Source: Hesseltinella vesiculosa (taxonomy: Eukaryota > Mucoromycota > Mucoromycetes > Mucorales > Cunninghamellaceae). From it: a stretch of 64,000 nucleotides of DNA. The notes beneath the pieces were generated by a model that had not been told where the DNA came from, made no database searches, and saw only the letters and a program-made list of their open reading frames with translations. Location of the stretch: the NCBI GenBank assembly GCA_002104935.1, contig MCGT01000002.1, positions 1,240,001 through 1,304,000 of the forward strand. Direction: 5' to 3'. Positions 7,545-21,024 of the stretch are shown here, in pieces (the first letter of the stretch is position 1; every line of letters starts with the position of its first letter). The translations under genes and the position numbers were made by a program.

Positions 7545-10500
7545 TTATTCTATAATAACCGAAGCGTTGAGGATGGAGCGAACAAGATGAGGTAAAGGGT
7601 GGGTTTGTAAAAGATCATGATAGACTCTCCATTGGGTGGTGAGGGACAGCTGTAATTCTTGTTCCAGAGCCAAGCGCAAGTCCCAAGGTATGTTGTACAG
7701 GTCAAACGTGACATGATCAATGGCATATTGCAACAGGGACTGGACGATCATTAGCCGCACCAATTGATCGGCCGGAGACCCGCCGCCTTGAACGACGTCC
7801 TGCACCACTGACAAATCATTCACAACAATGGGTTGGACGGATTGGTTGACCAGGGTCATTTCCAACGGCGTCAGGTCCCACATACACAGCCGGACCTTTT
7901 CGAGAAACAGCCGTTGTTTTGGTTCAGGCAGTTGCTTGAGCATGTCATAGAGCAGTTGGCGTGTCTGTCGTTGTTGATCGACAAAACCGACCATGGTCTG
8001 GGCTAGTTGGGTATGATGCTTGTTGTGCAGGGGCGAAGCATAAGGAATCTTGGCCATGCTCTTGCTGAAAAAGCGGGTACGGCCTTGTTGATCATAGGAG
8101 CAGTGCAGCTTGATAAAAAACTGGATCGTGCTGGAGTTGAGTAGGCCCAGGAAGAAAAGGTAGGCCGACGGGCTGGAGGGTGGCGAAGAAAAGGGAGGGT
8201 GGAGGACGGTGAAGTACATGCACTGGTTGGTGACGCAGTGGGCGTCTTGGTCCAAAAAGAAGCGCTGTCTTGGCTGGGTCTTGCTAAAGTAGCCAAAGTT
8301 GATGGGGTGGATGAGCTTCATTGGCGTGTCGTGACCACACTTGCTAAAAGCACACCACGCCAGGGTCTTGTCGGTCTGCGATGGCTGGAGCTGGACCCGG
8401 GCGTCTTGGAGATACTGATAAAGCGGCGTGTCTTTCTGCAGCACCTCGGCCCGGTCCTTGTCCACCAGAATGAGCGAGTAGTGGGCCATCGGCCAGGCCG
8501 CAAAGGCCTCGGCGCACGAGTTTTCCTTTTTGGTCAGTCGTCGAGGATCCCGACCGGCCCAGAACCGCGCTTCCTTGTTGTCCGAGGTGCCGGTGTCATC
8601 GCTGTTGGTGTCGCTGGTGGGCACGCGGTCCCGTTTACGTTTGCAAGGTCGGCGCTTGTTGGTGAGCTCTTGCATGGTTTTGCCGTTCCAATAGAGGACC
8701 GGTCGGAGCCAGGCAGCACAGTCCTTGGCGCCAAATCGCTCCAGCGCCCAGGCAGATCGTACGACCAGGGCATACACGGGGTTTGTGTTGGGTCCTCGGT
8801 GCCAGAGCAAAGGAGAAGGATCGGCCGGGTCGTCGTTGGTCTGACAGAGTCTGGGCATGTGCTGGGTTCGTTGGAGCATCTGGTCGGCCACCATGGAGGT
8901 GGGGTACAGGCTGCCAAAGGAGCCTTGCATGTGGCTGTCGATAGCTTGAGGGTCGTCGGTGGAGGTGGTCTTGCATTGCAGCAGGTGATCGTGATGTTGC
9001 TGGGGGTCGAATTGCATATACGCGTCAAGGATCTCCTGCAGGGTCATTTTGCGAGATTGGTGGCGCAAGAACATCACGGGCGGGCAAGGTTGGCTTTGGC
9101 GTTTGCTGACGCGGAAAATGAGCGAGTCTGTCTGGACCTTGGGCCATACCTTGAATGGCTCAAACTGGAAGCATTCCAACAGTTGGAAATGGTGCCACAT
9201 CCATATCCTTTTGAAGCAAGTCAGCGACCCTGTTTTTTTTTTTAAAAAAAAAAAAAAAAATTACCTGAGCTGCTCAGCAAAGGACAAAACGGTCCATTGG
9301 CTGGGGGTGATAAAGCAGAGCTGGCCACAGGCGGGGTCAAGCCGTTGGAGACACAGCCACATAAAATACATGTAGGCCTGGGTACCCTTGCCCAGGATAG
9401 CAGGATCGTAAAGGGCCCGGTCAGGCAAAGTGATAAAGCCAGTCTTGCGGATCATGTAGGGCGGGTTGGTGACAATATAGTGGAATTGTAATTGGGTAGG
9501 ATCACGCAGTTTGAGCAGCTGGGCATGCTCCCAAGGATGGGAGATGGGATCCGGCAGGGTCAGACGGAGGGCATCGTTGCGGAAGAGGCACAGAGGCGTC
9601 AGACAAAAGGTGTCGATGCCGAGCTGTAGTAAGCGGTGATACAGCGGGAACAGGTGAAGTAGAATGTTCAGGGTGGCAAGTCGATAGGCAAACGGGTCGA
9701 TTTCCACGCCCCAGAGGGTATCGGGCAACCGGGCAAAGAGCGATTGAAGGGCTGGGCCATTGTGCCAGTAGTCGGGGTGTTGCTGGAGGAGTTGGATGAG
9801 CTGGGTCAAGTAGGCACAGAGAAAGGCCCCGATACCCATGCATGGGTCAAAGACATTTGGCAGGCGGGCAGGTGAGAAGGGGCGGTGCTGGAAGCAGCGA
9901 GACCACATGAATTGGACGACGGGGTGAGGGGTGTAGAACTGACCATGGTCCTTTTGATGACGCTGAGCGACAGGTTGCAAGAGATGCAGGGTATAAAACT
10001 GGGTCAGGACGGTGTCGATCAAGGTCAAGGAGCGAAAGGTGACACCCAGCTGCTGGATGGGTTTGGTCAGCAGCAGCAGCAGATCGGAGCGGTGGTGATG
10101 GTGGTACCAAGTAAATGGATCATGGGATGAACTGATAGTATGACCCTGGTGATGGACAAATAATCGAGCAAAGTCATCCCATGGCGAGACTGGCGAAAGC
10201 ATCATGTCTGACACAACCAAGTCAAGCAGGGCCAGGTAGACGGACATGAAGGCGACCATGCGGCAGTAAGTGTCGGCGGCCCAGGCAGGATCCAGTTCAT
10301 CGCCGGTTTTTTTCTGCTGCTGGACTTGGTATAAAAACGTTTTGATGCTCGTCATTGGGATAGCAGGGATGGAGCCAGCTTAAAGAAAGGGTCAATGAAG
10401 GTTCAGGCGGTGTTGGAGACACTCACCTTGCTTCTGCTGCTGCTGCAGCAGGTGGGCGAGCACGAGAGGTTGGACTTGATTCAAGGCATCCCCCAACAAT

Positions 10501-10712
10501 TGAATGATGGATTGAGCATCGGTCATGTCCAATGGCAAATCCGAAGTCATGGAACTCGGCGTCGCCATGTCACCATGGATGCATGGTGATCCTAGATCCA
10601 AGGCGAGATCGGCTAGAGCGGTCTCAGGGGGCGAGTGCTGGGCGTGCACAGACAATGGAGGAGAAGTGTGTCGGTTAAACAATGGCGATTCGGTCATTGC
10701 ATCATTAAACAA
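7545..10712 (-). CDS. Bacterial-type N6-adenine DNA methyltransferase (Eco57I/TaqI-like, gamma class), intron-containing
   Basis: Three exons (10712-10427, 10378-9265, 9207-7545) give about 1,020 aa in one frame; introns are 48 and 57 nt, the second with a CTGAC branch-site-like motif. Residues about 1-230 are helical/low-complexity with no nuclease motif seen. Catalytic core: G-Q-F-Y-T-P near 241, F-D-P-C-M-G-I-G near 262-269 (AdoMet motif I), W-G-V-E-I-D-P near 308-314 (motif II), N-P-P-Y at 390-393 (catalytic motif IV), I-T-P-S-Q-W near 452. The C-terminal half has V-W-P-K-V-Q-T-D-S-L-I-F and L-L-N-S-S-T-I-Q, as in TaqI/Eco57I specificity domains. Family knowledge: such enzymes transfer a methyl group to adenine N6 in duplex DNA. 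A basic stretch at 651-661 could be a nuclear signal. All key residues are present, so it is probably active. It may be an old bacterial acquisition; the target site and role are unknown. Confidence 0.85.
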
Positions 10713-19196: not shown

Positions 19197-21024
19197 ATGC
19201 ACAACCCTATTCTTGTGGCTTTTTTCTACTTGCCATGGGCACTGGCCATGGACGAAAGGAAAAAGTCGTTTCGCCAAGCCTTGCAGGACATGAACTGCAC
19301 CAAGTTTATTCAGCTCTTTGAAGACAATGGGTTTTCTACTTATCTGGATCAGCATGACAACCAACAATATACACTCCTCGTTCCTCCAGACCATACCATG
19401 GATGAATCGCTCATTGCAAAAAACGAATTAAAAGACTGGCTGATGGTAAGCGATGACCTTTTTCACGTTGCCGGAAGAGTCCATTGACTTTGCTTCTATT
19501 AAACGTGAATAGTACCATGTCTTGGACAAGCCTTATGCTGAAAAAGAACTGGTCGATAACCAGCTGTTGATGACCGAAGCAGGGGAAACTTTCTTGGGTA
19601 AAGGCGCCAAGCAACGCTTACGTGTGCAGGTGACCAACCAAGACCAATTGGTGATTGGCCCAACCAAGAAATCGATTCAGTTTGGCAACACACAGACGGC
19701 CAGTGCGCCTGGTAAGTTGGCCCAACAACATGGGAGAAATAACAAACCTCATTCCTCCTTTGTAGAATATGTTGACAAACAAGGCTATGTATACCCTGTG
19801 GACGAGGCGCTGCAGCTACCGGGCGACCTGATGCACCAACTGCCTACTCATTTGGATCTGTCGACATTTGTAGCAAGCATGTTCGCGTCCAAGACCATTG
19901 ACATGATCCAACTCCAACGCGGCATCACCCTTTTTGCGCCGACGAATGCTGCCTTTGAACGCCTGGGGCTAGTGACAAAGTACTTTTTGCATCCCAAACA
20001 CAAGAGCGAGCTGGCCCATCTGCTGCGATTCCACACAGTGCATGGGGTTTACTATCAAGATTCCTGGACCGATGGCGAGCAGTCATTGCCCACGATGTCT
20101 CAACGCCACGGTCAGATCGACCAGCTGCATATTAACAAGACCGTCGATGGGTCGATCTATGTGCGCGGCCACGGTGCCTTGGATGGTAACGATGCGAGTG
20201 TCATTGCCCGAGTGGTGGCCCGGGAAACCCTGATGCGCAATGGCGTCATGCACCGAATCGACCGAGTCCAGATGCCCAAGTCGCTGATCTTCACCCACAA
20301 GGACATCCTCGCTGCCTCGGGCTGCTGCAATGGGTTCCTGGACGTGATGGAAAAGGCTGGCCTGATGCCACTGCTGGACCGGCCCACGGCCTCCCTGGAT
20401 GCCAAAGCCTACACAGTCCTTGCCCCCAACGATCGTGCGTTTGCCAAGTTGAATCTGACCCGGCTCTTGCAAGACACCAGCCTCCTGGAACGGGTTGCCC
20501 GCCTGCACATGATACCCGCAGCAATGCCTGCCACCCGTCTGCCAGCGCCGTCGGATGGCCACCATCACAAGAAGAAAAAGGAAGCCGACAAGAAGCACGA
20601 CTCGTTGGTCTTGCCGACAATGCACGATGAGCACAGCGTGGTGCTGAAACGCGCCGACGACGCCGAATACTATGACGAGGTCCATGTCCAAGGCTTTTCA
20701 CAAGATCGTGCAGACGTGGTGACCACCGGCCGAGTGACCAACGGCGGCGGCGTGCTGGTGATCGACCAAGTGCTTCTGCCTGAGCAAGATTTTGACCATG
20801 GCTTGCCATGGTGGCAAGTGTTACTGATTGCAGCCCTGGTGCTGATGTTCTTCGCCATACTGGGTGCTGTGGCCTATTATATTTGGAAACGCTGGCAAGC
20901 TTACCGTGATGGCTATGCCCGTATCGAAGACCAGCCCAACCCCGACACTGTCGATGAAGAAGCCAACCATGAACCTCAACAGCGCCAACCTCCACAAGAC
21001 TCAGATGACGATAATATCGCTTAG
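19197..21024 (+). CDS. Fasciclin (FAS1) repeat membrane protein
   Basis: Exons 19197-19445, 19513-19711, 19766-21024; 568 aa. Signal peptide about 1-17 ending A-L-A, which is why this ATG was preferred over the in-frame one at 19146. Three FAS1-like repeats follow, marked by L-L-V-P-P-D, I-T-L-F-A-P-T-N-A-A-F and Y-T-V-L-A-P-N-D-R-A-F. A His/Lys-rich spacer leads to one membrane helix near 498-523 and an acidic cytosolic tail of about 45 residues. By family knowledge, FAS1 proteins of this topology sit in the secretory pathway, vacuole or cell surface and act in adhesion or vacuolar/autophagic functions; the exact role here is unknown. The second intron is 54 nt with no in-frame stop, so retention would insert 18 residues. 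Confidence 0.85.

Follow-up and report, generated by a model that had tools for sequence, protein, structure and literature searches.

The question raised by this locus of Hesseltinella vesiculosa, a Mucorales fungus, is whether its chromosome harbors an N6-adenine DNA methyltransferase of bacterial type, equipped with its own target recognition domain, and, if so, whether this enzyme is a writer not yet described, as the initial annotation had proposed. The gene in question lies on the minus strand of a stretch of 64,000 nucleotides (hereafter the window, to whose positions all coordinates of the gene refer). The first part of the proposal was borne out by the Pfam matches, the tree and the intact motifs; the second was not. 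In 2024, Lax et al. named MetB a PF02384 protein conserved in early-diverging fungi, which has been knocked out in Mucor (PMC11258239). The gene belongs to this family, and therefore the claim of an undescribed writer had already been answered in print; a new family is ruled out, and the protein is an ordinary member of the MetB family, not a new kind of epigenetic writer. In our view, it is very probably the metB orthologue of this fungus, that is, an N6-adenine DNA methyltransferase of ancient bacterial origin that stands alone, carries no nuclease, and works by the mechanism proposed below.

Affiliation to the MetB Family

According to Lax et al., whose list comprises 183 proteomes, MetB occurs in Mucoromycota, Mortierellomycota, and Glomeromycota; the fungal clade is distinct from bacteria, an ancient bacterial transfer was proposed, and a second transfer was reported in Glomeromycota (PMC11258239). 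The deletion of MetB in Mucor lowered N6-methyladenine (6mA) by 70–75%, mainly asymmetric 6mA, and the AAA6mACA motif was gone (PMC11258239). The MetB work is cited by a 2025 paper (PMC12695648) and a 2026 review (PMC13297926).

The profile search called for by the initial annotation retrieved two Pfam families above their curated cut-offs, Eco57I (1.6e-15) and N6_Mtase (PF02384; 2.2e-13, 50.6 bits vs. a cut-off of 20.4), as had been expected; TaqI_C (0.04), also expected, stayed below its cut-off, as did MmeI_Mtase (0.0018). The four NCBIfam matches to the protein were each far under their cut-offs. Pfam at E ≤ 1, with filters that drop most matches above 0.1, gave no nuclease family; on this basis, a restriction-modification function is ruled out.

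The catalytic motifs are intact. Over 20 aligned rows (the window protein and 19 fungal homologues), motif X, GQFYTP (residues 236–241; 9927–9944), has G236, Q237, Y239, T240, and P241 invariant; the S-adenosylmethionine (SAM)-binding motif I, DPCMGIG (residues 268–274; 9828–9848), has D268, P269, C270, and G272 invariant; motif II, GVEID (residues 314–318; 9696–9710), has G314 and D318 invariant; and the catalytic motif IV, NPPY (residues 395–398; 9456–9467), is invariant. The initial annotation had placed GQFYTP correctly (9927–9944) and had rightly recognized an acidic motif II and an LNSS stretch, the latter found at residues 818–821. NPPY and DPxxGxG are also present as it said, but each lies about 30 bases from where it had been put: positions 9486–9497 read TQLQ and positions 9858–9881 read PFSPARLP.

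NPPY also occurs in HemK-type glutamine methyltransferases, and the second N6_Mtase match of the genome (contig C1, locus L002) carries it; this gene we take to be HemK-like from its size, its motifs, and the context of NPPY. In principle, the window protein might likewise methylate RNA or protein, as HemK/METTL proteins do. We consider this very unlikely: both Pfam families above their cut-offs comprise DNA methyltransferases, the HemK-like gene stands at a locus separate from metB, the predicted fold of a Mucor relative matches CamA bound to DNA, and DNA 6mA falls on deletion in Mucor (PMC11258239). Moreover, unlike HemK/PrmC and MetA/N6AMT1, which are small, stand-alone, and devoid of a recognition domain, the window protein has 1015 residues and a recognition domain. 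PF05063 (MT-A70) was absent from the Pfam matches at E ≤ 1, and motif IV reads NPPY, not DPPW. Membership in HemK, N6AMT1, or MT-A70 is thus ruled out by Pfam, the NPPY motif, and the separate HemK-like locus.

Relatives and Phylogenetic Position

A search of 5.8 billion proteins with the window protein (7989 scored candidates) gave 86 matches at E ≤ 0.001; those bearing an organism name were early-diverging fungi, with Cunninghamella first (46–54% local identity; E = 6e-278 for Cunninghamella echinulata). In a second search, an alignment of 52 sequences served as the query and retrieved 137 matches at E ≤ 1e-10; among the 120 matches listed, Basidiobolus was gained, and the bacterial-type sequences P0119–P0125 reached at most 127 bits vs. 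at least 326 for the others. With a profile of 51 fungal-type sequences, from which the window protein was excluded, this protein scored 1185 bits vs. 106 for the best bacterial-type match. It shares 35–54% identity with the 19 fungal homologues and 41% overall with the Mucor circinelloides protein; 103 residues are invariant across the 20 rows. Judged by these residues and by the E-value of 6e-278, the sequence conservation is far beyond chance.

The Basidiobolus ranarum sequence (P0087; 1111 bits with the fungal profile) is a full MetB relative outside Mucoromycota, with GQFFTP replacing GQFYTP as motif X. For carriers outside Mucoromycota, Lax et al. report Conidiobolus and Paraphysoderma, and Basidiobolus appears in their paper in the reference list only (PMC11258239). 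In the 90 fungal-type sequences of at least 840 residues, strict patterns recovered motif X in 88 and motif IV in 89, and motif I failed in 38; 37 of these failures read DPCLGVS where DPC.G.G was sought, and one is a partial sequence without the stretch. The DPCLGVS proteins (e.g., P0049, P0056, and P0088) are often 1300–2250 residues long, and their named carriers are, we presume, Mortierellomycota genera.

On the bacterial side, the set scored with this fungal profile at E ≤ 0.001 comprised 17 sequences (eight proteins and the open frames of nine bacterial loci). A scan of bacterial and archaeal genomes returned nine weak loci, the best with 28% identity, covering parts of the catalytic domain, to which the nearest bacterial sequences chiefly align. 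Scanning viral contigs with P0029, a protein annotated as Mucor circinelloides that we took as the Mucor MetB, turned up two pattern matches but no relative. A maximum-likelihood tree of 42 rows, rooted at the midpoint, separates 32 fungal sequences (including that of the window) from 10 bacterial ones by a branch with 100/100 support. By path, the window row is nearest to Cunninghamella. The phylogeny proposed as a check in the initial annotation thus groups the protein with the fungal rows, and the protein matches no eukaryotic RNA or protein methyltransferase family.

Gene Structure and Residence in the Fungal Chromosome

The gene (7545–10697) encodes an intact protein of 1015 residues in three exons; both introns are spliced in frame, in agreement with the structure annotated initially. 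Exon 1 (10427–10697) has a poorly conserved N-terminus, and its start codon at 10697 is the sole in-frame ATG of the open frame upstream of the conserved part. Intron 1 (10379–10426; 48 bp, GT-AG, GTGAGT...TTTAAG) is followed by exon 2 (9265–10378; open frame of 372 residues), coding for the helical N-terminal part and the bulk of the catalytic domain. Intron 2 (9208–9264; 57 bp, GT-AG) begins with GTAATT and ends with CTTCAAAAG, an acceptor that preserves the conserved frame; a nearer CAG acceptor was rejected after inspecting the sequence by eye, as the frame hits a stop after about 22 codons. Exon 3 (7545–9207) encodes the end of the catalytic domain, the target recognition domain, the C-terminal helices, and the stop.

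The solved structures closest in fold are bacterial, which would fit a recently acquired bacterial gene, a contamination, or a chimera of the assembly. Against this stand the two short GT-AG introns, a contig of 1,513,655 bases (in a genome of 27 Mb and 85 contigs), a host-like codon usage (r = 0.92 between metB and six further long open frames in the window), a purely fungal side of the tree, and the 35–54% identity to 19 fungal homologues. The G+C content at third codon positions is 0.675 in metB and 0.594–0.726 in the other long open frames. Contamination is ruled out by the introns, the contig, the codon usage, and the tree, and a recent bacterial origin in any of these forms is hardly credible. 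As for the flanking fungal genes also invoked initially against contamination, Pfam named only two of seven open frames taken from the window (fasciclin and TPR); because of this, the fungal neighborhood rests on the introns, which held as an argument, the contig, and the codon usage.

Separately, an open frame at 19513–21024 (plus strand) carries two fasciclin domains (2.3e-34).

The Target Recognition Domain

The target recognition domain (about residues 597–857; 8022–8804) contains conserved blocks, among them WHRGPNTNPVYALVVR, HPINFGYF, PRQRFF, VTNQCMYF, LNSS, and YDQQGR. It also embeds, in a variable loop, the basic stretch KRRPCKRKRDR (residues 646–656; 8625–8657), which by its sequence may be a nuclear localization signal.

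Identities to the window protein were measured block by block over 30 fungal relatives. The two catalytic blocks gave 38–62% and 49–77% (medians 49 and 63), the two recognition blocks 35–68% and 39–61% (medians 64 and 54), the intervening linker 23–43% (median 31), and the C-terminus 12–45% (median 26). Of the 103 invariant positions, residues 591–860 hold 43 and the two catalytic blocks 48. In these alignments, the recognition and catalytic domains are under about equal constraint; this, in turn, predicts a shared target type, so that the same type of site is likely read across these fungi. In bacterial relatives, recognition domains change fast.

Gongronella butleri harbors four diverged MetB copies (P0006, P0012, P0014, and P0098), all with NPPY and none with YDQQGR; QTDS is also absent from two of them, and three lie on contigs of equal stated size (933,292). 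The three copies that were measured give the lowest recognition-block values (35–56% vs. 48–68% in the 27 others), and without them the ranges become 56–68% and 48–61%. The Gongronella copies may have changed their target site. Since such diverged copies exist near this lineage, the window protein itself might be a MetB paralogue of changed specificity, with the same chemistry and a recognition domain reading another site. This seems improbable to us: the protein retains YDQQGR, PRQRFF, and WHRGPNTNPVY, it is 58% and 51% identical to the Mucor protein in the two recognition blocks, and it is the sole full copy found in its genome.

Other Copies and Methyltransferases in the Genome

Besides the full metB copy, the protein search found three short fragments in its own genome, and the DNA search only the gene itself; the DNA search was judged less sensitive here because the protein search recovered the fragments. 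These (L011:4497–4643, L011:7855–8001, and L012:3771–3904; 134–147 bp) belong to repeats in other parts of the genome, are 80–81% identical to a part of exon 3 (window 7905–8052), and have in common a one-base deletion relative to metB. Two of them occupy the arms, 99.8% identical, of an inverted repeat of 1276 bp. One possible origin is the capture of a piece of an old metB copy; small RNAs might also arise from them.

MT-A70 gave four matches at three places (contigs C67, C52, and C23; L003–L006), one with DPPW and one with DPPL; one of the matches is presumably METTL4-like. The machinery for symmetric 6mA, that is, MT-A70 writers, is thus probably present elsewhere in the genome too.

Proposed Mechanism and Its Weight

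In the proposed mechanism, the C-terminal recognition domain would bind a short, non-palindromic site, most likely A-rich; one adenine would be flipped into a cage formed by F238, Y398 (of NPPY), and W483; and a methyl group would pass from SAM to the adenine N6, leaving 6mA on one strand only. For this species, we infer the activity, the target site, the cage residues, and the role; the gene structure, the intact motifs, the family, the grouping with fungal MetB, and recognition-domain conservation are shown here, and the fold is predicted for the Mucor relative.

Several points weigh against this reading. In the window protein, the recognition domain clears no Pfam cut-off. That of the Mucor MetB was reported by HHpred as PF20466 (MmeI-like) (PMC11258239), and hmmscan over 25 members at E ≤ 0.1 gave no match to PF20466; TaqI_C matched in 18 of the 25 (best 3.6e-7) and MmeI_Mtase in 15. 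The predicted structure belongs to the Mucor relative P0029 and not to the window protein, and the identification of P0029 as the Mucor MetB relies on organism and family rather than on an accession. A single-sequence search with either protein does not find CamA; the best solved structure is then a type I HsdM subunit (3ufb; E = 0.043 for the window protein and 0.01 for P0029), and CamA ranks first only by profile search and by fold. The pairing of recognition-domain residues rests on a segment of 3.6 bits. Lastly, the place of the window row within the fungal clade is unsupported, its letter make-up was flagged as unusual, and several bacterial branches are long.

A broader and more doubtful idea is that MetB is a CamA-type reader of A-tracts, whose recognition domain was frozen early, so that Mucorales, Glomeromycota, and Mortierellomycota would use one strand-specific 6mA code, out of which the four Gongronella copies broke; the metB fragments of the inverted repeat could feed small RNAs against metB. 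More soberly, the locus is one more example of a sequence-specific DNA methyltransferase of bacterial type that has become a permanent component of a fungal chromosome, alongside MT-A70 genes. Two hints are new, the CamA fold match and the conserved recognition domain, the latter predicting a shared motif across these fungi.

Comparison with Known Systems

The predicted fold of the Mucor relative has CamA as its closest solved structure, over the catalytic and recognition domains. CamA of Clostridioides difficile is a nuclease-free methyltransferase that reads CAAAAA (PDB 7lni, 7lt5; PMC8187626), and Mucor 6mA lies in AAA6mACA (PMC11258239). CamA shares this fold with the Mucor relative and, to judge from the Pfam matches, the lack of a nuclease with the window protein. 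The fold alignments show 13–18% identity and start from model residue 156, the N-terminal helical part having no CamA counterpart. From the modeled fold, the match suggests a mechanism for choosing one-strand A-rich sites; a limited literature search found no paper naming both MetB and CamA.

The type IIG/IIL enzymes (MmeI, 5hr4; DrdV, 7lo5) and BREX PglX/BrxX (8c45, 9ewz) have the helical part, the methyltransferase, and the recognition domain in the same order. The alignment to these structures runs from model residues 22–32 to 914–937, with a root-mean-square deviation of 5.2–7.5. MmeI and DrdV carry a nuclease before this part; the alignment begins at their residues 161 and 143, and no nuclease was found in the window protein. 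Among the matches listed (25 of 32), the PADLOC type IIG models cover the catalytic domain only. BrxX acts in a defense system, and the matches to the NCBIfam PglX models fall far short of the cut-offs. HsdM differs in lacking a recognition domain of its own, which a separate HsdS supplies.

Mad2 of the MADS defense system is the best PADLOC model (3e-12), covering residues 233–510, the catalytic domain only, among the matches listed; NCBIfam MAD2, however, gives 25.6 bits vs. a cut-off of 720. The MT-A70 writers (Mta1/AMT1) also write 6mA in fungal DNA (PMC11258239), but belong to another family, with the DPPW motif and symmetric sites. The closest counterpart is the MetB of Mucor, which has in common with the window protein the N6_Mtase domain, a recognition domain at the C-terminus, the placement in the fungal clade, and the catalytic motifs; it comes from another species, at 41% overall identity for the M. 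circinelloides protein.
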